NCBI RefSeq assembly: GCF_900102005.1
Contig: NZ_LT627736.1
Location: 1 to 64,000 of the forward strand
Source: Microbacterium sp. LKL04
GTDB lineage: Bacteria > Actinomycetota > Actinomycetes > Actinomycetales > Microbacteriaceae
Direction: 5' to 3'
DNA length: 64,000 nucleotides
In this document: positions 51,409 to 62,857 of the stretch, piece after piece
Position numbering within the stretch: position 1 is the first letter of the stretch
How the letters are laid out: every line of letters starts with the position of its first letter
The notes under the pieces: model-generated
Seen by the model: the letters and a program-made list of their open reading frames with translations, nothing else
Told to the model about the DNA's origin: nothing
Databases searched by the model: none
Program-made: the position numbers and the translations under genes

Positions 51409-51481
51409 GCGCCCGTAGCTCAATGGATAGAGCATCTGACTACGGATCAGAAGGTTAGGGGTTCGAGTCCCTTCGGGCGCA
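51409..51481 (+). tRNA. tRNA-Arg (anticodon ACG), island integration target
   Basis: Acceptor arms GCGCCCG/CGGGCGC, ACG in the CTACGGA anticodon loop, GGTTCGAGTCC T-loop; CCA not encoded. A TATGCT hexamer at 51378-51383 is a plausible -10 box. Its 3' half and terminator are repeated imperfectly at 62768-62857. Confidence 0.97.
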
Positions 51482-51535
51482 CACTGTGTTGAGACAGTCT
51501 GAGAAAGGCCCCGCTTCGGCGGGGCTTTTCTTGTT
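51444..51535 (+). repeat. attL-like direct repeat (tRNA-Arg 3' part plus terminator)
   Basis: From the anticodon stem through the T-arm and terminator, to TTCTTGTT. Matches 62768-62857 over ~90 bases in direct orientation with about a dozen differences and two short gaps. Marks the left edge of the island. Confidence 0.8.
51504..51528 (+). terminator. Terminator of tRNA-Arg
   Basis: Stem GGCCCCGC/GCGGGGC with TTCG tetraloop and a following TTTTC tract. Part of the ~90-bp sequence duplicated at the far end of the island. Confidence 0.85.
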
Positions 51536-51929: not shown

Positions 51930-53897
51930 GTGAGTGACCAGGTCGAGGAAGTGCGCCGGGTGCGGTTCTATGGGCCGAACGACATGGCAACGGGGTTGTT
52001 TGTTCAGCGGGTTGCCGAGTTAGTTAAGGCATTTGATCCAGACGAACCGCCTCGGAGTACGGCGGACATCCTCGAACTTCACAACGTGCAGCAGTACCTC
52101 GAACACGGATTCCTCCCATTGGGTTACACCGATGAAGAGCGGGATCGAGCGCTTGAGCGGATCCCCGCAATCCGAAGCGCAGTCGCCCGCCACTTCTCCG
52201 CAATGGACGAAGTCGGGTTTGCGGTTGCCGTCCATGGCGTCGGCCGCGAGTACAGCGCTGACCTCATTGACCTGCTCGGCCGGAACGGGGTGTTTCGACG
52301 GATTCCCAGCACGACGGTGCTTCCAGCGCTTTATGCCGCCGGTGCTCACCTCGGCGACATGCTCGCGAGCAAGAAGCTCGTAGACGCTTACGACGCCGAG
52401 ATGTTCGACGAACTGCGCAATGCTCCGCGAGGCGCCGAGCATTTGATCCGACGTTACCTGCAAGCCGACGTGCGCGAGGAAGTGCATCTCCCGTCGAGTC
52501 TGACACCAGCCGCCGCGCGCGCGGTTATCGAGCGGTACATAGACGGCGTCGACGCGAACCCCAACTACGTCGGGCTAATCGCGACTGCCAAGAACACTCC
52601 GCAGGTTGGAGTGGACGCCAAACTCAGGCTTCGAGCAAGGCGACGGTCGAAACAGATGACCGAGGCCTTCTTCGCTGAGAACTCGGGCCTCAAGACAGGA
52701 TGCGACGTCGGCATCTCTGAAACCCAGAACGCGCCCGTCACGTCCGAGGTCGACACCTCTGACGGATGGATAGCTCGCTATCGGTACAGCAGGCGGTGGC
52801 TGGAAGAATCGTGTGACTACCCAAGTATCCTCAACAACTTTCAACACCTTTTCGGCTTCGTCGATCAGCAAGCGCTCCTGGTGTTGCCGTCCTACCCCGC
52901 GCAGCTCGGGGTCATGGAGCGCATCATTGGCACGACCGGAAAGCACGAGTACAAAGTCGGTGCAGAGTTCCAGTCAACAGACATACGAACAATGCTGCAG
53001 ACACGGCTATATCACTTCTTTCTCGATTCGAAAGGCATTGAGCTGGAGTGGGTGATCGCGTGGTTCTTCGAGAAGTACCTTGTCGAGCAGTTCGGAGCGA
53101 AGGGCTTCTCATTCACCCCGTCAGACAGGAATGCTTCGCACCTTCAGCGGGTCAGACATCTGTTCGTGGAGATGGAGAGCGCGGCGAACCAGTACAACCA
53201 GTACGTCCAGGAGGGTGAACTCGATCGCGAACTGCTCGAAGTCGCATCCGAGCAAGTTCGATACCGGGAAATCCCGAGTCTGGTGACCGGAAAGTACCTC
53301 TACCCGACCGGCAGCGACGACCTCAACGCCATCATCCACCTGCTGTTCTCAGACCAGTCCTCTCTGGCCTACATCAACGAGGACCTGAAGTCGGACTCTG
53401 CCGCGAGACTCCTCGTCGAGAATGAGGTGGCCTACGACGACTTCGAGGACTACCAGCGGCCGAGCATCGACTTCCTGATCGAACAGGACGTTGTGCGCAA
53501 CACGGGATCCCGGGTTTGCATCATCAACCCGGAGCGGTTCCAGATTCTCGCGGCACTGTTCTCGACAGAAGCGGCAAACTTTTTCCATCTCTCGGAGGCG
53601 GGGCGCGCACAAGCTGGCGCCATGGTCGCCAAGGGTTGGACCACGCGCCGCTCGTCTCTTCTCACGGACGCCGAAGCCGACTACTTCAACTACATGCTCA
53701 ACTCAGTGGACTTCAGCAACGGACCTCGCTTACGAAACCGATACCTCCACGGGTCGCAAGCCAACCGTGACAGCGAAGACGAACACTTCGCGACTTACAT
53801 CAACGCGCTGCGACTGACCATTGCGTTGGTCGTCAAGATCAACGATGACTTCTGCATCGCGTCCTCCCACCAGCAGGCGAACCCTTTCCACGCGTGA
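51930..53897 (+). CDS. Large orphan protein with C-terminal HEPN-like R-N-x3-H motif
   Basis: 655 residues from GTG 51930 (GGGGAAGAGG five bases upstream); the frame is open further left but without coding character. No signal or membrane helix. The last ~55 residues contain RNRYLHG (Arg602 to His607), then a helix FATYINALRLTIALVVKINDDF. This R-N-x3-H geometry is the active-site signature of HEPN ribonucleases, usually in a two-helix context as here. The rest is helical with no recognised domain. An RNase toxin or antiphage effector is the leading hypothesis. Followed 283 bases later by the nuclease-like gene. Confidence 0.8.
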   Translation: MSDQVEEVRRVRFYGPNDMATGLFVQRVAELVKAFDPDEPPRSTADILELHNVQQYLEHGFLPLGYTDEERDRALERIPAIRSAVARHFSAMDEVGFAVAVHGVGREYSADLIDLLGRNGVFRRIPSTTVLPALYAAGAHLGDMLASKKLVDAYDAEMFDELRNAPRGAEHLIRRYLQADVREEVHLPSSLTPAAARAVIERYIDGVDANPNYVGLIATAKNTPQVGVDAKLRLRARRRSKQMTEAFFAENSGLKTGCDVGISETQNAPVTSEVDTSDGWIARYRYSRRWLEESCDYPSILNNFQHLFGFVDQQALLVLPSYPAQLGVMERIIGTTGKHEYKVGAEFQSTDIRTMLQTRLYHFFLDSKGIELEWVIAWFFEKYLVEQFGAKGFSFTPSDRNASHLQRVRHLFVEMESAANQYNQYVQEGELDRELLEVASEQVRYREIPSLVTGKYLYPTGSDDLNAIIHLLFSDQSSLAYINEDLKSDSAARLLVENEVAYDDFEDYQRPSIDFLIEQDVVRNTGSRVCIINPERFQILAALFSTEAANFFHLSEAGRAQAGAMVAKGWTTRRSSLLTDAEADYFNYMLNSVDFSNGPRLRNRYLHGSQANRDSEDEHFATYINALRLTIALVVKINDDFCIASSHQQANPFHA

Positions 53898-54179
53898 GAG
53901 TTTCACTCTGGCGCTTCGCGACCCTTCCGTCACGCTAGGACGATCGGCAATGATGCCGGACGATCGTGGGTCCTATCTCGCCGACCGATCGGCTCACTGG
54001 TGGACGGTGGTGAAAGCGGTTAGGCGCGATCCCGAGCGGATCCACCGACGGCTGGGACGCGAGCAGTCACGACCGCCCTCAAGAGGACCGTGGATCGGGC
54101 GCTCGCGCCCGGCTATATGTGAGTAACGCGTGCGTCGCTGAAGCTCGGGCATGTCGGGGACAGATGGTTGGGTATACGC

Positions 54180-56630
54180 ATGACGCAACGAAAGTCTCGG
54201 AGGCAGAAGCCCAACCGACGCGCGGCACGAGCTCGAACTAGCTCGCTCGACCCCCACGGTCAGTCCATTGCGGAGTCCGTCGATCGTCAGATCGCGCTGA
54301 TGATGGAACTGGCGGACCACGAGTCACCGCTGGACGAACTCGACCGTCGCATCGATGCCAAACTGACGGGGCTCTGCGACGCACTCGCCCCCCATAAGCC
54401 CGAAAGGATCGTGGAGCTCGCGCGCATCGCTTGCCTACCGTGGTCAATGGCAGGACAGGTCAAGCCTGACACTGAGGGCGGCATCGTCAAGGCAGAGCTT
54501 TTAACACTTCTGGCGCAAACGGCCAGTGTCGGGGATAGTGACGGTTCGGCTGCGAATGAAGAGCCGAACTCCCTCTATCGTGCTGCCCACGACTGGGCCG
54601 AGTCGGTGGGATTGCTGATCGAGCTAGTGCAGACGCGGACACTGATCACGCTTCGCGATCGCCCAGCAGACGATCTTGACTTTCTCGCGTTCTCCGCGCG
54701 GTCCACGTCGGTCTGGATACGGAGCACGTCCTACCCGGACATGGTGCAAGCCACCTACGACGCATTGTTTGGGCAGGAGGAAGTGCGGGATGCACTGACA
54801 GCCCATCTTGGGTTCAACGAGGGCGACGCAGTAGCCGTCCTCACGCGTCTGCACGACTTGCAGGTCGCAAGAATGAACGACCGCTTGGAGGCAGGATTCC
54901 AGTCACTCTTTGACGCATACGAGGCGTCGAAGCGAGGAGCAACCTCCCCCGACGCTGAGACTCGAAACCGGGCGCGGGCTGCGCACAATGTCGGGTGGCA
55001 GCCGACCGCAGATCTGGTCGCCATCCCGGCGTCAGAAATCGCTGACTCTCTGGGACGGGACATCGGGGTTGTCGAGGCCGTGCTCAACCGATTCGCGCTC
55101 GATCTCGGGGGATCCAATGCTCGCGAGAGGCTGGACGCGTTCATCGGCGGCGACAATCCGCTACGAACCAACCCTGTGGTGCGCACCGGACGGGGAACCT
55201 TCATGCTCGTGCACGACGCACTCGTCCTGCCCGCCGTCCGCGAGAACCTGGAGCAGGAACTGAAGGCGCTTCCCGAATGGGAGCGGTACCAGAAGTGGCG
55301 TGGCACGCTCCTTGAAAATCTCGGGAGAGCCGCCTTCGAAGGGCTGCTACCGGGAGTCACTACTTACGCTTCGTTTGACTACTTCGCACCGGCAAGCGAC
55401 ACAGAGGCCGCAGGCCCACCGACGGGATACACGAAGAAGGTCGAAGGTGACCTCCTGTTCCTGCTGGATGACGTCGCGATCATCGTCGAAGCCAAAGCCG
55501 TAGCCATCACTCCCGAGACCCGTGCCGGCGAGACACGCCGGTTGCGTCGTGATCTCACAGGCATCATCACCAAAGCCTCGGAGCAGGCCAGTCGTCTACA
55601 GGAACGCCTCGAGAACGACGACGGTGTAAGGCTGCACCAAGAGGGATGGCTGGACCTCGCCCACGTCCGCGAAATCCACACCGTGGCGCTGAGCCTCGAA
55701 GACCTCTCCGGCGTCGCGACAGCGACCAGCGACCTCGTCGCTGCCAGCGTGCTCCACGCAGAGCACATCCCTTGGGTCGTATCTATTCACGACCTCCAGC
55801 TGATCGCTCGAATCGTGGAGCGGCCAGCTGAGTTCCTTCTATACCTTCGCCGTCGACGCGACCCGGAGGTATCGCTCGCGTACACGGCCCCAGACGAACT
55901 CGACCTCTTCCTCTACTTCTACGAGGCTGGTCTGTACGTCTCACCCGACCCGAACATCATGGTCGCTGAGCTTCCGTACGTCACCGCACCACGCACCGCG
56001 GACGTTCGACGACGCACGCAGCAGCGACCGACCCTCATCACAAGCCGAACCGACCCGCTCGATGCTTGGCACTACGCCGAACTTGACCCAGACCGTCCCC
56101 CTATCGCTAAGCCCCGCCTCACCGGGTCCCCGATGACCGAGTTTGTGGACGAGCTGCAGAGCCGCAAGTCGTTCGGCTGGCTCAGCACCGGTGCAACATT
56201 GCTATCCGCGTCGACGAAGGCTCAAGCGGACATGGTTCGGATTCCAAAGAAGTTGCTGGCTGCACCCGACGCGAGGGGACGGGAACGCACGCAGACGGTG
56301 CCACTCGGCACAAGACTGAGTGACGCCTGGTTGCTGGTGTGGATGACAAACCCGGCACCCCAAGCACTCAAGCAGGTCGCGGACTTGGCCCGCGACTATG
56401 TACGGGCCAAGAAATACCAATTGAAGTTCAATCGGGGCGCCGTCTTCATTTTCGACCAGGAAACGGCGGCCCTCGTCGAGGTTATTTACGATGGCACTCT
56501 CCCAACACCCGACCCCGAAATGGATCGCTTGATAGTTGGGCTCTTTCCGCCTGACAAGATGTCGAGCCCTCCACCTCCGACTCGCCGGCCCGCGACCCGA
56601 AGCAAGGATAAGAAGCGCAAGCGGAGGTAG
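54180..56630 (+). CDS. Large orphan protein with PD-(D/E)xK nuclease signature
   Basis: 816 residues. A very basic N terminus (RKSRRQKPNRRAARAR) and C terminus (SKDKKRKRR) suggest nucleic-acid binding. In the middle: Glu387 (GRAAFEGLLPG), Asp424 in VEGDLLFLLDD, then Glu437-x-Lys439 in VAIIVEAKA, i.e. the E...D...ExK order of the PD-(D/E)xK fold, as in NERD and restriction-like nucleases. Surrounding regions are alpha-helical and unassigned. ATG 54180; a TTG 12 bases upstream is in frame. Same strand as the HEPN-like gene; the two probably form a module. Function inferred only. Confidence 0.8.
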   Translation: MTQRKSRRQKPNRRAARARTSSLDPHGQSIAESVDRQIALMMELADHESPLDELDRRIDAKLTGLCDALAPHKPERIVELARIACLPWSMAGQVKPDTEGGIVKAELLTLLAQTASVGDSDGSAANEEPNSLYRAAHDWAESVGLLIELVQTRTLITLRDRPADDLDFLAFSARSTSVWIRSTSYPDMVQATYDALFGQEEVRDALTAHLGFNEGDAVAVLTRLHDLQVARMNDRLEAGFQSLFDAYEASKRGATSPDAETRNRARAAHNVGWQPTADLVAIPASEIADSLGRDIGVVEAVLNRFALDLGGSNARERLDAFIGGDNPLRTNPVVRTGRGTFMLVHDALVLPAVRENLEQELKALPEWERYQKWRGTLLENLGRAAFEGLLPGVTTYASFDYFAPASDTEAAGPPTGYTKKVEGDLLFLLDDVAIIVEAKAVAITPETRAGETRRLRRDLTGIITKASEQASRLQERLENDDGVRLHQEGWLDLAHVREIHTVALSLEDLSGVATATSDLVAASVLHAEHIPWVVSIHDLQLIARIVERPAEFLLYLRRRRDPEVSLAYTAPDELDLFLYFYEAGLYVSPDPNIMVAELPYVTAPRTADVRRRTQQRPTLITSRTDPLDAWHYAELDPDRPPIAKPRLTGSPMTEFVDELQSRKSFGWLSTGATLLSASTKAQADMVRIPKKLLAAPDARGRERTQTVPLGTRLSDAWLLVWMTNPAPQALKQVADLARDYVRAKKYQLKFNRGAVFIFDQETAALVEVIYDGTLPTPDPEMDRLIVGLFPPDKMSSPPPPTRRPATRSKDKKRKRR

Positions 56631-56726: not shown

Positions 56727-56951
56727 CGTCGAAATGATCGTTGGCTGAAGCCCATCGCGGGAGCCCCAGCTCCGGGCGCATTTTTCTGGTTGGTCGGAGG
56801 ATTCCTCCTCCTCTACGTCGCACTCCTCGCAATTCGCTGTTTCGGAACTCGGTTCCCCAATCTGCGGAAGGTGGTCACGCGTATGAATGAAGCAATTCAT
56901 GTTTGGTCAGCCTCAACGCTGGCACTATCGGCGTCTGGAGCATGGACTTGA
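56727..56951 (+). pseudogene. Membrane-helix ORF without a normal start codon
   Basis: Open frame that reads GAFFWLVGGFLLLYVALLAI, then a positively charged RFPNLRKVVTRMNEA and a short tail to TGA. A coding-like hydrophobic helix followed by positive charge, but no ATG or GTG precedes the helix; only TTG/CTG. Either a start-lost remnant or a gene with a rare start. Its 3' end overlaps the following ORF in another frame. Confidence 0.3.
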
Positions 56952-57384
56952 GCCAACGATCGATAGCGAACACCCGGACGATCGCCTCTTGTGCACTAGC
57001 GTCGCTGAGGTGAGCAGGCACGAGACCCACGAGCCCGATTTCGAGGCGAACTGGCCGCACGGTCACGTTGGTGTCGCCGAGGAGGCCGACGGCGCAGACC
57101 CGCTTGGGCGGCTGAACGCTGCCAAGGTAGCGGCCGCACGCACCGATGCCGACGCCGATGAGTGCATGGTGGTGCGCCTCGGGGTGCACGACCACTTCCT
57201 GCATGCTCAGACGACCAAGGCTCTGTTGCACATGGTTAACGCCCACGGCGACCGGGCCGCCGCCGTCACCGTGCATGGCGTCACGCACCTCCTCGACCCA
57301 GCAGCTGTGCGGGCACTCTCCGAAGAGCTCGACGCAGTCGTCGTCGGGTTCTTCGGCGACCCGAGTATCGACCCCCGCGAGTGA
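56887..57384 (+). CDS. Orphan hypothetical protein
   Basis: 165 residues. The N-terminal third is His/Arg/Glu-rich (WHYRRLEHGLEPTIDSEHPDD). The C-terminal half looks like a folded alpha/beta domain: DECMVVRLGVHDHFLHAQTTKALLHMVNAHGDRAAAVTVHGVTHLLDPAAVRALSEELDAVVVGFFGD. A 215-codon frame on the opposite strand covers the same DNA; this strand is preferred because its residue pattern has regular amphipathic helices and the neighbours share orientation, but the choice is not certain. No ribosome site is clear. Confidence 0.5.
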   Translation: MKQFMFGQPQRWHYRRLEHGLEPTIDSEHPDDRLLCTSVAEVSRHETHEPDFEANWPHGHVGVAEEADGADPLGRLNAAKVAAARTDADADECMVVRLGVHDHFLHAQTTKALLHMVNAHGDRAAAVTVHGVTHLLDPAAVRALSEELDAVVVGFFGDPSIDPRE

Positions 57385-58022
57385 TCCCGGCCTAAGCAGG
57401 GCGCTGGCCTCTTTGCAGAGCTTTGTACCGAACACCTCAGCGGCCCATCGTCCGAAGGTTATGTTCGTGATCACGAGATGGGCAAGCCATCTTCCGAGCC
57501 GAATCTGCCAACCCACCCACACGCCTCCACGACCGAGGCACCGAAGACGACGAAGGAGACGCAGAGCGCGAACCAGCTCCTTATGGACGATCGAGGCAGT
57601 GACGACGATGCGCTCACTCGCGCATGTTAGCGACTATGTTTCAGAAGGCCGTCTGCGCTGCGGGCGGGAGCACGCGCCCTACCGATCCCCTTCGTAGTGA
57701 TCGCCTTGCCCTCGGTATCAATGCGCGGCTTGGGTGCCATCGACGGCTCCCGGCTGACGACCGCACCGCAACGCTACGAGCACAGCGGGGAGCCGCAAGC
57801 GATCGTCGCCCAGATGAGGATCCGAGTGGTTATCGCGTTAGGGCGCGGTATGGTACGCGAGGGCGACCAGCGCGGCGGACAGTAGCAATCGCCCACGACG
57901 GCCCCGCTTGCTTTTCGTTGCCCGAATAGCGATTCGGGTCGCGCTTGGCCCGCCCGGGGCGACCAAATTCCTCCCCCGCAGTTCCCCTGTCTCATGAACC
58001 GGTTCCCGCGGTCTCTGGGCGG
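57385..58022. other. 638-base region without a convincing gene
   Basis: Several short frames exist (for example 57478-57630 and 57697-57885, plus strand) but none has a ribosome site, typical codon use or a recognisable domain. Probably decayed island DNA between the plus-strand block and the minus-strand genes. Confidence 0.5.
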
Positions 58023-59168
58023 TCAGCGAGGGTGTTGCGAGGTCGGCACCCGATTGTCCTCTCCCAACTCCACGCCAGCATCGACTCGCCACTGCCCAGT
58101 AATACGAGCAATGCTCTCGAAGTCGCGCCCCTTTGCAGCCTCCCCTAATGGCTCGAACATCGTCACGACGCGCGCATCGTCGAGCGTTTCCAACCACTTG
58201 GTGTATGCATTTCGGCTCTCTTCGCCGTCTTCGGCCACCATCATGTCCGCAATGTCGCTTCGCAGCGCGATTGCCTGCATACGCACGTTTGCTCTGACTG
58301 CCGCGGACATGGGTCTAGCTGCCGTCCACGCGTCCTTCGCGCGGTTGTATCCGCGGTTCGTGTCGAGGTGCGGCCGGAGCTCGGGGAGGTCGGTTCGCCC
58401 AGCGATGAGGATGGGCAGAGCGATGCGACGAACCCACTCTTCTATCTCGCGCACTTCCCACATGAGGGTTCGTAGCTCGCCTGTGTGGGGACGGCGCACA
58501 GCCACCTGCGGCCACACTGACACGCCCTCCCGCGTACCCCGAGGCACAGAAACAATTACTGAGCCGATATCACCGATGCCGGTCTCTTGAAGATCCCGCG
58601 GGGCCGAGTCGAGCTGCACCTTCCCGACACGGACGGTCGTGAGCGCCGGCGCCTGGTGCTTAGCCGCGTTGGTGTGCGCGACGAGCCGCCGTAGTGGATG
58701 CAGGTCGGAATCTTTGCGGTTCCAGGGCTGGAGTCGAGCCAGCCGCTCACCGAGGTCAGACCCCCTCGCGAACAATCCGTGCGATTTGCGGTGTTTGTGC
58801 CGCGTCCAAGCGTCGAACGCTTCCTCTGAGCCGGTCGCCGGGACCTCGATCGCTCGAGCCTCGTCGGTCGTGATGCCGCGCGCGAGTCGGTGGTCCACCT
58901 CCGCCTTGAGCGAGTGCTCGAGGACGTTTCGCATTTGGTTGAGAGCGTCCGCGAGCAGGCGCGGTACAGACTGAGGCAATGGTGCGACACCGACGAGGAT
59001 GACGTCCTCCGTCGTGAGCGTGAGGCGGGAGCGAATGTCGAGCGGCCCAGGGGGACGGAGATAGGTTTCGAGCACCATCGACAATTGCTCGATGGTCGAG
59101 TCCACGTGAGTAGCGGTGTAGAGCGCATGGGTCTGATGGTCGGGCAACCAGAACATGGGCGCAGGCAC
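58023..59168 (-). CDS. Orphan protein with N-terminal R-N-x3-H motif and DKHR-like region
   Basis: 381 residues from GTG 59168 (ATG 59156 also possible). Near residue 75: LLADALNQMRNVLEHSLKAE, with Arg80 to His85 in HEPN-type spacing. Later, LARLQPWNRKDSDLHPLRRLVAHTNAAKHQAPAL resembles a widespread uncharacterised family in which LRSALDHL is followed by LQPY and then NIDKHR. The C-terminal third is helical. Cytosolic. Possibly a second RNase-like effector of the island, or a non-toxic relative; undetermined. Confidence 0.75.
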   Translation of the reverse strand: MPAPMFWLPDHQTHALYTATHVDSTIEQLSMVLETYLRPPGPLDIRSRLTLTTEDVILVGVAPLPQSVPRLLADALNQMRNVLEHSLKAEVDHRLARGITTDEARAIEVPATGSEEAFDAWTRHKHRKSHGLFARGSDLGERLARLQPWNRKDSDLHPLRRLVAHTNAAKHQAPALTTVRVGKVQLDSAPRDLQETGIGDIGSVIVSVPRGTREGVSVWPQVAVRRPHTGELRTLMWEVREIEEWVRRIALPILIAGRTDLPELRPHLDTNRGYNRAKDAWTAARPMSAAVRANVRMQAIALRSDIADMMVAEDGEESRNAYTKWLETLDDARVVTMFEPLGEAAKGRDFESIARITGQWRVDAGVELGEDNRVPTSQHPR

Positions 59169-59424
59169 AAGTCCAGCGTATTTGTGCCCCGCGAGCGTCT
59201 ACCCCAGCGCGCGGGGACCTCCCCGATCACGTTCTTGGCCGATCGAGCCGAAAACCCCTGCAGGCGGCGGCGTTGACCACGAACGCTCCAGAATCCAGCG
59301 CACGAGATGTAGCCCGCTCGCGAACCACCCCGATGGGCAGTGCCCGGAAATCGACCACGAACGAAGCTGCCGGGCGGCGTACCGATGGCGCCTTGATCGG
59401 CTAAGGATCGACCGCTCGGCGGAG

Positions 59425-59913
59425 TCAGGCGCTGTGCGGGCGACGGCCTTCCCGGAACGCCAGTTCTCGTTCATCACGTAGCGCGCCAGCCGTGCGTTGC
59501 GCGATGACCCACTCGGCGACTTCCATGATCACGACCGATACGGCGCCAGCGATCGTTCCGACCAAGAGCGATGACAGCCAGACACTGCCGAGGCTGTGGC
59601 TGGTCGGCGGCCACACAACGAGAACCACCGCGTACGAAGCAACGAGAGCTGCGGTCGTCGTCCAGATTCGCCAGCGGCGGACGAGTCGTTGATCCGTCGC
59701 GTTCCACGCGTTCAGGTCTTTCGCCAGTGCGGTGAGAGTGACACCGAGTTCTGTCCGTTCGATTGAATCAGGTAGCGCGGCGTGAGCTTGACCGAGCTTC
59801 CTGATGCGCGCGAGTAGTCGACCCTCCTTGCGCCAGCGTGGACCAACCCAACCGACAACAGCGATGAGCGACGCTGCCACCGCGCTCAGCACGGATCCGA
59901 GTTCGATACTCAC
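59425..59913 (-). CDS. Orphan membrane protein, three helices
   Basis: 162 residues. An N-terminal helix (SVLSAVAASLIAVVGWVG) is followed by ~65 polar, largely helical residues (RKEGRLLARIRKLGQAHAAL, DLNAWNATDQRLVRRW), and two further helices (TTAALVASYAVVLVVW and SSLLVGTIAGAVSVVIMEVAEW). The topology resembles small membrane effectors with a cytoplasmic coiled region, but I cannot assign a family. Transcribed toward the R-N-x3-H gene, with a 256-base gap. Confidence 0.65.
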   Translation of the reverse strand: MSIELGSVLSAVAASLIAVVGWVGPRWRKEGRLLARIRKLGQAHAALPDSIERTELGVTLTALAKDLNAWNATDQRLVRRWRIWTTTAALVASYAVVLVVWPPTSHSLGSVWLSSLLVGTIAGAVSVVIMEVAEWVIAQRTAGALRDERELAFREGRRPHSA

Positions 59914-60047
59914 TACCTGAAGCTATCGCGTCGTGGCGATGCTCTCGCGATTTTCGCGACGCGGTCATAGAGGCGATCCCTCAACGAGCAGCGCCCGCTG
60001 AGGGATCGGTTTCCAACAAGGTCGCGCCGCGCCGCTAGGGTTCTAGG

Positions 60048-60677
60048 GTGATTGAGTGGGCCACCGAGGCGATCAGCTCGGTCGCCGATTTCGTTAGAAA
60101 GATTGGACCAGGGAGTTGGGCGGATTGGTTCGCGGCTGTAGGGACCGTGGGCGCGCTCGCTGCAACAGCGGTCATTTACGCCTGGGATAGACGCCGTGCG
60201 CGAAGAGCACAGGCAGATGACCTCAACGCCTGGACAGAATCTGCTCTAAGCCGCGAGACGGGTTGGCGAGTCGTCCTCCATCTTGAGAACGTGAGCGATC
60301 GAACGATCCCCGATATCTACATTCGTTCGCACCCGCACGCCCGGATGCAATCGCGGGGAGTGCTCAACGACACTGACGAATTCGGGTTGCGGCCAGGCGC
60401 CCGCGCGTCGATCACTCTCCTCTATGGCGCGTCGCCACCGATGCTCCCTGGGGCCAAAGGCTCTAGCGCTCGCGTCGATGACCGGCTCTTCCTATTCTTC
60501 TCAGATTCGCGTGGCAGCCGCTGGGTCCGCGACGTACGTCGGAACCGGTACGTCGGTCGAATTCGCTCTAGGTTGCTGAAGGCGCGAATGGAACTTCGCG
60601 ACGCGCGCACGCGGGCGAGTGTGACTCGAAGGCTGCAAGGCGCCTTCAGCCCAACTCCGCCTGCGCGCGAGAGCTAG
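60048..60677 (+). CDS. Orphan membrane-anchored protein
   Basis: 209 residues: N-terminal amphipathic part, one membrane helix (WFAAVGTVGALAATAVIYAW) followed by a basic stop-transfer RRRARRAQ, so the C-terminal soluble domain is probably cytoplasmic. That domain is beta-rich (WRVVLHLENVSDRTIPDIYIRS, RPGARASITLLYG), ending in an Arg-rich helical tail. A TAGGGT hexamer at 60036-60041 puts transcription start at the GTG, so the mRNA may be leaderless. Function unknown. Confidence 0.68.
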   Translation: MIEWATEAISSVADFVRKIGPGSWADWFAAVGTVGALAATAVIYAWDRRRARRAQADDLNAWTESALSRETGWRVVLHLENVSDRTIPDIYIRSHPHARMQSRGVLNDTDEFGLRPGARASITLLYGASPPMLPGAKGSSARVDDRLFLFFSDSRGSRWVRDVRRNRYVGRIRSRLLKARMELRDARTRASVTRRLQGAFSPTPPARES

Positions 60678-60729
60678 CGATCGTCAGCGCACGGTCAGAC
60701 TCCGTCACCGGGCATCGCCCGATTAGGGA
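60676..60729 (+). repeat. Island short repeat, copy 2 (hairpin)
   Basis: GCGATCGTCAGCG overlapping the preceding stop codon, then CCGGGCATCGCCCGATTAGGGAT 18 bases later. Same order and spacing class as 56634-56676. Stem CGGGC/GCCCG could end transcripts. Confidence 0.55.
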
Positions 60730-60930
60730 TGGTGATCGGCTAACAGCCGAAGGTCGCCGTCGACAGCATCGTTAACGACCCGGCCCTTTCCGGCGTCACG
60801 TCGGAGTCTTCCGACACCCCCCGAGGTGCCACGCGATCGCCGACGACCGCCGCAACGCGTGACCGACGCTATCGGCGTTCGCTCGTCGCGGCTGTGAGGA
60901 GAGCTAGCATCGCCCCGTTACATTGATTCA

Positions 60931-61473
60931 ATGACATGGGAAGGACTAGCGCAGGCCAGTACGATTGTTACGCTTTCGGCGGGCTTGATTACCCTGCTGT
61001 CGGTCATCGCCTACGTCTGCACGCGCCCGAAGGCCGATCTGCGCCTGAATGAGCACGGTGTCGTCGGGGTACACAACACGGGCAGCAATCAGTCCATCAA
61101 GAACATCCGCCTGGGATGGCACATCCTGCGGGCGGACGGGACGGCTCACTCTGGCACCGGGGCGGACCCGTGGGGTCAGGACATCCCCCCGAGGACCGGA
61201 CGGTGGATGTTCCTCCGCAGCTCTGATGATCCCAACGATCTCGGAATCGGGACGCACGACGGCTACACCAACGAGATCGTCTCCGCGGTCGGCGAGGGCA
61301 TCATCATCGAGTTCTATTGGCAGCACCCGTTCGTTCCATGGTTGATCCAGCGCACGATCGTGCTTTCGGAGCCGACGCGCGACCTCGGTTCGCAGAAGGC
61401 GGTGAGACTCTCCCGCCGCAAAGGCAAGAAGGAATGGGCATGGCGAGTGCCCCGTCCAGGACAAGAGGCGTGA
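60931..61473 (+). CDS. Orphan membrane-anchored protein with beta-rich domain
   Basis: 180 residues: one N-terminal helix (ASTIVTLSAGLITLLSVIAYV), then a beta-rich soluble domain (ADLRLNEHGVVGVHNTGSNQSIKNIRLGWHILRADG, WMFLRSSDD, GIIIEFYWQHPFVPW) and a basic C terminus. Architecture matches the gene at 60048, though sequence similarity is not obvious. TACATT (60919-60924) lies seven bases before the ATG, and no Shine-Dalgarno is present, suggesting a leaderless transcript. Confidence 0.68.
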   Translation: MTWEGLAQASTIVTLSAGLITLLSVIAYVCTRPKADLRLNEHGVVGVHNTGSNQSIKNIRLGWHILRADGTAHSGTGADPWGQDIPPRTGRWMFLRSSDDPNDLGIGTHDGYTNEIVSAVGEGIIIEFYWQHPFVPWLIQRTIVLSEPTRDLGSQKAVRLSRRKGKKEWAWRVPRPGQEA

Positions 61474-61807
61474 CTTACCGCGCGAGCTGACGGGCGCCGC
61501 GTTCACGGCGTGGGACTGATCGAGGCCATTGCATGAGACCCTCGCGGTGTTCCTCGAAATCGTTGCGCATCAGCAGCGGTCGCGAGAGGACATGCACCAG
61601 AGCGTCGTAGATCGCAGTCGACGGCTCGCCAGCCGACCGGCCACTCCCGGCTGAGCCGAGATGCGCGCTTCGCAGCTTGACGCGCCGTTGCCCGTAAGGC
61701 GATGGGGGGCAGGCTCAAGCACGATTCGTCCCCCCGCGGGCGGTGCTCGGGTGATACGACGCGCGAGCTCTTGCGGCGGTTCTAGGAGCAGCGATACGTT
61801 CGGCGCC

Positions 61808-62179
61808 ATGCCTGAGAACTTCTACGATGCAGAGGACGAGCGGTCCGCGTCGCTGTATGAGGTATTGGACGAACACTCCGCCCACACGGAGGTCCTGGCA
61901 AGCCGCATAGGTCAGCGGGTCGCACAAGTGGACAAGTGGTCGGGCGCATCAAACTTCGTGGTGGCAATTCTCGGCCTGATTCTGGTCGCCTCAGCACTCC
62001 TCCCGGGGAGCTTGCCGTCTGTCGCCTATGTCGTCGCGCTGATAGTCATCGTGACGCTGGTCATCTCGACGGCGATCTGGCGACTGACGACGTTGTCGCG
62101 ACTCGAGCAGGAAGGCAGGCAAGCCGCGCGGGAACTGCGGACCCTGACAGCCGAGATTGCTGCTGCGCATGGGGGCTGA
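61808..62179 (+). CDS. Small two-helix membrane protein (possible 2TM effector)
   Basis: 123 residues. A polar N-terminal helix region (LYEVLDEHSAHTEVLASRIGQRV), two membrane helices (NFVVAILGLILVASALL and VAYVVALIVIVTLVISTAIW), and a C-terminal coiled segment (LSRLEQEGRQAARELRTLTAEI). This layout is like SLATT-type two-helix effectors of nucleotide-signalling systems, but no signalling enzyme is encoded beside it, so the comparison is structural only. TTGCGG (61771-61776), an 18-base spacer and TACGTT (61795-61800) precede the ATG, implying a leaderless start. Overlaps the next gene. Confidence 0.68.
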   Translation: MPENFYDAEDERSASLYEVLDEHSAHTEVLASRIGQRVAQVDKWSGASNFVVAILGLILVASALLPGSLPSVAYVVALIVIVTLVISTAIWRLTTLSRLEQEGRQAARELRTLTAEIAAAHGG

Positions 62180-62555
62180 CCCGAAGCGGAGAGCGAAGGC
62201 CGCTCGACAACGCGCGGAGTCCGCCGCCAAGCGCGCGGAAGACGCAGCCAAGCCAGAGGAGCGCGGGTTCCGGGGTTGGATCCGAACGACAACCGCGGCC
62301 GTCTTAGTCGCGACCTCGGCGGCCTTTGCCGCGCCCACGGTCGAAGTGGTTAGCGATGCGTTCACCCCTCCGCTGTTCGACTGCATCAGCATCAGTCAGG
62401 AGCTCCGTGACTCGGCTGAAGACGGCAGCAGTTACCTGCTACCGCTCGACGACCCGCGTGAAGTCGCATGCGGAATCAACGATGCAACGGTCAAGGATTT
62501 CCCGGAGCTACAGGATGATCTAGACGATATGAAGGAAGAGGCTGAAGCACAGTAG
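62169..62555 (+). CDS. Small single-span orphan protein
   Basis: 128 residues from the ATG at 62169, which overlaps the previous stop by 11 bases; a TTG at 62157 is in frame. The N terminus is very basic and helical (KRRAKAARQRAESAAKRAEDAAK). One hydrophobic segment follows (TTTAAVLVATSAAFAAPTV), then an acidic extracytoplasmic part with two cysteines (FDCISISQELRD and VACGINDATV) that could form a disulfide. Likely partner of the two-helix protein upstream. Last island gene. Confidence 0.65.
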   Translation: MGADPKRRAKAARQRAESAAKRAEDAAKPEERGFRGWIRTTTAAVLVATSAAFAAPTVEVVSDAFTPPLFDCISISQELRDSAEDGSSYLLPLDDPREVACGINDATVKDFPELQDDLDDMKEEAEAQ

Positions 62556-62767: not shown

Positions 62768-62857
62768 GGATCAGAACGTTAGGGGTTCGAGTTCCTTCGG
62801 CACAGACTGTTTGTGACAGTCAGAGAAAAGCTCCGCTTCGGCGGGGCTGTTCTTGTT
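62768..62857 (+). repeat. attR-like direct repeat (degenerate tRNA-Arg 3' end plus terminator)
   Basis: GGATCAGAACGTTAGGGGTT continues through the T-arm (GTTCGAGTTCC) and a GCTCCGC/GCGGGGC hairpin to TTCTTGTT. The acceptor 3' strand is damaged (CGGCACAG instead of CGGGCGCAC), so it cannot be a tRNA. Right edge of the island. The 210 bases before it (62556-62767) contain no gene I can support. Confidence 0.8.

Follow-up and report, generated by a model that had tools for sequence, protein, structure and literature searches.

Upx, an antiphage PD-(D/E)xK protein (PDB 9wuf), is said to have been first described by Gao et al. in 2020. PDC-S56 is a phage defence candidate family of PADLOC. The published description of the HEPN superfamily (PMC3710099) defines it by a conserved motif Rx4-6H in which a polar residue follows the arginine and which closes helix 3, and names DUF4209/C6orf70 as a HEPN family bearing this motif. 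Here we compare with these systems two adjacent genes of Microbacterium sp. LKL04, which lie in a 64,000-nucleotide stretch (contig NZ_LT627736.1, positions 1 to 64,000; hereafter the window) of a 2.92-Mb single-contig genome. We consider it probable that the products of gene 1 (655 residues) and gene 2 (816 residues) are anti-phage proteins that act independently, each probably a single-gene system, and that the two genes are neighbours in the cargo of an 11.3-kb tRNA-Arg island. The observations behind this reading are residue conservation, the order of secondary-structure elements, a family match for gene 1, a fold match for gene 2, the boundaries of the island and the lack of co-occurrence in the genome samples.

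Conserved residues and predicted folds of the two proteins

The PADLOC PDC-S56 profile (PDLC05039) matches residues 3-648 of the 655 in the gene 1 protein (profile positions 3-645 of 649, E 4.1e-234). A protein search with gene 1 gave 416 proteins at E<=1e-3, its own included, of which 120 were listed, and 47 of these, again with its own, were aligned. Within the motif R602-N603-R604-Y605-L606-H607-G608, residues R602, N603, Y605, H607 and G608 are invariant in 47/47 aligned sequences, as is E582, and a relative of 25% identity retains the motif as RNKYDHG. The first-pass annotation, made from the sequence alone, had read Arg602-His607 (RNRYLHG) as a HEPN signature with which the protein ends; the signature is indeed present, near the C terminus but not at its very end, with 47 residues following it. 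In the gene 1 model (pTM, predicted template modelling score, 0.58; pLDDT, predicted local distance difference test, 64-74 at residues 591-620, a moderate local confidence), RNxxxHG ends a short helix (601-607) that is followed by a long one (616-650), and E582 lies in the preceding helix (580-590). R602-N603-x3-H607 fits Rx4-6H with a polar residue after the arginine, and in the model it stands where helix 3 ends, helix 2 carrying the acidic residue E582. A DUF4209 match at E<=1 was found in 20 of the 47 aligned members (best 2.1e-5). When ten homologues were scanned singly, P0236 alone passed the Pfam cut-off for DUF4209 (match 589-625, motif at 602), P0145 had a weaker match (594-624) spanning the region of its motif at 601, and seven had none. 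Conservation, secondary-structure order and family matches thus give good but incomplete support for a HEPN-like gene 1 protein. A distant gene 1 relative (21% identity) on an Enterococcus hirae plasmid (L091 7890-9878) adjoins an annotated TIR-domain protein and recombinases.

The gene 2 alignment comprised 56 sequences, its own included, in all of which E379, D424, E437, K439 and Q469 are invariant. The PD-(D/E)xK set proposed earlier therefore holds for Asp424, Glu437 and Lys439 (56/56) but not for Glu387, which is a glutamate in 27/56, the invariant acid being Glu379. In the gene 2 model (pTM 0.85), E379 lies in helix 367-389, D424 in strand 419-429, the ExK in strand 432-439 and Q469 in helix 452-480, so that E, D and (E/Q)xK occur in the helix-strand-strand-strand-helix-strand order of the PD-(D/E)xK fold. 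Conservation, this order and the fold match support a PD-(D/E)xK-like protein. Neither protein reaches a Pfam cut-off, and in both predicted structures the key residues stand where their folds require them; for both proteins, clustering of the residues is judged from the helix and strand order of the models. At least 12 of the 120 listed gene 2 relatives (P0008, P0038 and P0092, for example) are named "preprotein translocase subunit SecA", as are relatives in 4 of the 10 plasmid records with gene 2 relatives, in what looks like a propagated misnaming.

Separate distribution and a shared island

The same annotation had joined the two genes into one conflict module. Its HEPN-like and PD-(D/E)xK-like identities are supported by conservation and secondary structure together with the gene 2 fold and the gene 1 family matches. 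The module, for which the annotation itself had named a lack of co-occurrence as grounds for rejection, is contradicted as far as the sampling reaches: no other sampled genome has both genes, and at none of 36 fetched loci was the second gene found. Gene 1 occurred in 5 genomes of a family sample (299 genomes for each search) and in 2 of a phylum sample (296 each), gene 2 in 7 and 5, respectively, and the present genome was each time the only one with both. In the genus to which Glutamicibacter sp. JC586 belongs (18 genomes), 2 genomes held gene 1 relatives and 4 others held gene 2 relatives. All matches in these samples were listed, and equal sample sizes and common listed handles suggest that the paired searches covered the same genomes. 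Five plasmid records carry gene 1 and 10 carry gene 2, without overlap. No gene 2 was detected in 26 gene 1 loci by tblastn or reading-frame clustering, and no gene 1 in 10 gene 2 loci by reading-frame clustering. Leaving genes 1 and 2 themselves aside, the commonest families of neighbouring genes reach at most 4/26 gene 1 loci and 2/10 gene 2 loci. The samples argue strongly against an obligate pair of genes that co-occur and adjoin in other genomes. Because relatives elsewhere carry the genes separately, we read them as probably two independent defence genes and not one new system, and their pairing is better explained by co-residence on one island than by a two-gene module.

The two plus-strand frames were found as first delineated. 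The gene 1 frame is open from 51486, its likeliest start being GTG 51930 (655 aa), and a gap of 282 bp separates it from gene 2, which starts at ATG 54180 (816 aa) on the same strand. GC content is 0.704 to the left of tRNA-Arg, as against 0.62 for gene 2 and 0.59 for gene 1. In G662, a relative with an empty site, the counterparts of the flanking genes on the left (91% identity) and right (85% identity) are separated by ~210 bp; both window flanks align to overlapping stretches of this site, which has one tRNA-Arg copy. Because att-like repeats bound the segment and the flanks are contiguous in the empty site of the relative, the 11.3-kb segment is an insertion at tRNA-Arg, as in a tRNA-integrated genomic island, with genes 1 and 2 as its tRNA-proximal cargo (Table 1).

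Table 1. Positions in the window of the island, genes 1 and 2 and the island boundaries
Feature	Position	Strand	Evidence
tRNA-Arg (ACG), insertion site of the island, intact	51409..51482	+	ARAGORN; Rfam tRNA 71.9 bits at 51409-51481
Left repeat (attL-like), 92 bp: 3' part of tRNA-Arg and terminator-like hairpin behind it	51444..51535	+	Direct repeats D1, D2; empty-site alignment
Gene 1, 655-aa PDC-S56 protein, mostly helical, C-terminal part HEPN-like	51930..53897	+	PADLOC PDLC05039; model
R602-to-H607 codons, predicted HEPN catalytic motif	53733..53750	+	Conservation
Gene 2, 816-aa Upx-like PD-(D/E)xK nuclease (predicted), basic N- and C-terminal tails	54180..56630	+	
Gene 2 codons 367-505, predicted PD-(D/E)xK core with E379, D424, E437, K439, Q469	55278..55694	+	Conservation; helix/strand order
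Remaining island cargo: short reading frames	56875..62555	.	
Right repeat (attR-like), imperfect copy of 3' part of tRNA-Arg and hairpin	62768..62857	+	94% over 33 nt, 89% over 47 nt

Twelve cargo reading frames were scanned with Pfam, very short frames lying outside the scan; none scored above cut-off, and neither an integrase nor a methyltransferase was recognised among them. A 381-aa frame (58023-59168, minus strand) contains MRNVLEH, which also fits Rx4H, and is matched by neither Pfam nor PADLOC at E<=1; its product may be a further HEPN-like protein of the island, or the motif may have arisen by chance. Among the short frames at 59425-62555, 59428-59913 and 61661-62176 have sub-threshold Pfam matches only, partly to membrane-protein families.

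Proposed mechanism and alternative explanations

On the reading of two independent proteins, gene 1 would be a metal-independent HEPN RNase whose helical N-terminal region senses infection and frees the C-terminal R602/H607 site, which would then cut RNA and bring about growth stop or death of the infected cell (abortive infection). Gene 2 would act as a PD-(D/E)xK endonuclease that depends on metal and is built like Upx: its basic tails and helical N-terminal region would hold DNA, and a site formed by E379/D424/E437/K439 would cut that of incoming phages directly, in the manner proposed for Upx.

Several points weigh against this reading. That the two proteins are nucleases, what they cut, what triggers them and that they protect against phages are inferences, the chemistry being taken from motifs. 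A limited literature search found no paper naming PDC-S56 and no test of the family. The gene 1 sequence has no DUF4209 (PF13910) match at E<=1 and does not reach the curated cut-off; the weak DUF4209 match of P0196 (451-481) is distant from its motif at 603; when gene 1 was compared with a single strong DUF4209 protein, the alignment covered only 25 residues, at the motif, and had a probability of 1%; and the fold comparison with solved HEPN proteins, made with the 655-residue query, barely covered the C-terminal part. Because gene 2 has no PADLOC family match at E<=1 (PADLOC-DB 2.0.0), its kinship with Upx is read from the fold. As to distribution, the samples are small for genes this rare, and a weak association would lie beyond their reach; flanks are incomplete at many fetched loci; the gene 2 matches in G067, G412, G518 and G569 are weak and partial (E 1.3e-8 to 3.3e-18 or 1.9e-20); and the Glutamicibacter genus, searched with P0154 (gene 1) and P0022 (gene 2), was picked since JC586 carries gene 1. 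Moreover, because P0022 and P0154 of Glutamicibacter arilaitensis have the same length of longest contig (3,926,631 bases), both genes probably reside on one chromosome there too. The link of gene 2 relatives to named defence systems comes from two neighbourhoods viewed in detail, without a control.

These two neighbourhoods bear on the nature of gene 2. On the Gordonia plasmid pGKT2 (L088 4519-16691), a relative of 37% identity lies between hmaA and hmaB of an Hma system, overlapping hmaA by 1 base, with hmaB and hmaC next, and in genome G143 a relative of 29% identity lies ~500 bp upstream of brxA, brxB and brxC of a bacteriophage exclusion (BREX) system. The two cases suggest that the family moves among defence loci. 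Tentatively, gene 2 may found a family of Upx-like nucleases that has yet to be catalogued, mostly from actinobacteria and carried on plasmids and islands, and that could serve modification-based systems as an interchangeable cutter. A rival account, in which gene 2 is one portable part of a restriction system, works with a partner for modification or recognition (Hma, BREX or restriction-modification) and not alone, and is orphaned here, draws on the same placements and on a type I restriction enzyme among 70 neighbours scanned; we regard it as unlikely, since 6/7 viewed plasmid neighbourhoods (of 10 records) have no restriction, methylase or BREX gene annotated, in gene tables that are incomplete, and since the island cargo offers no recognised methyltransferase.

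It is still less likely that one or both genes take no part in phage defence and are toxins that maintain the island, or cargo in decay. The mobile location, the lack of a recognised integrase and the imperfect att-like repeats, which suggest an old element, would suit such an origin, whereas both frames are open, the catalytic residues are strongly constrained across wide divergence, gene 1 matches a PADLOC family and gene 2 relatives have Hma and BREX neighbours. A true module in which RNase and DNase act together, gene 2 for instance degrading phage DNA with gene 1 as abortive back-up, is very improbable: same-strand adjacency, a common GC anomaly, one island and the apparent second organism speak for it, but no other sampled genome or locus has the pair, and no neighbour family recurs beyond the low counts given above. 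A tempting two-enzyme system hence drops from the list of candidates, and two single-gene candidates remain.

Comparison with known systems

Gene 1 is a member of PDC-S56 by its full-length match, with no difference found, and supplies a clean catalytic motif for this PADLOC candidate. With the DUF4209/C6orf70 branch of HEPN proteins it has the RNxxxHG motif and its helical setting in common, although gene 1 itself lacks a match to the profile.

Among PD-(D/E)xK nucleases, Can2/Card1/Cdn1 and McrC differ from gene 2, in which Pfam recognised no CARF domain. GapS1 (NCBIfam NF047931) matches weakly in the stretch around the ExK (residues 424-482, E 0.003), at 16.5 bits versus a cut-off of 320. 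Eight of ten further gene 2 relatives had no PADLOC match or weak partial matches of the nuclease region only. Because PADLOC-DB 2.0.0 holds no match and some relatives are named SecA, defence scans are likely to miss the gene 2 family. No PDB sequence match links gene 2 to Upx, the presence of the Upx model or 9wuf sequence in the PADLOC and PDB libraries being unchecked. Upx is the longer protein (1212 versus 816 residues, 12% identity), and gene 2 has architecture in common with it beyond the nuclease core.
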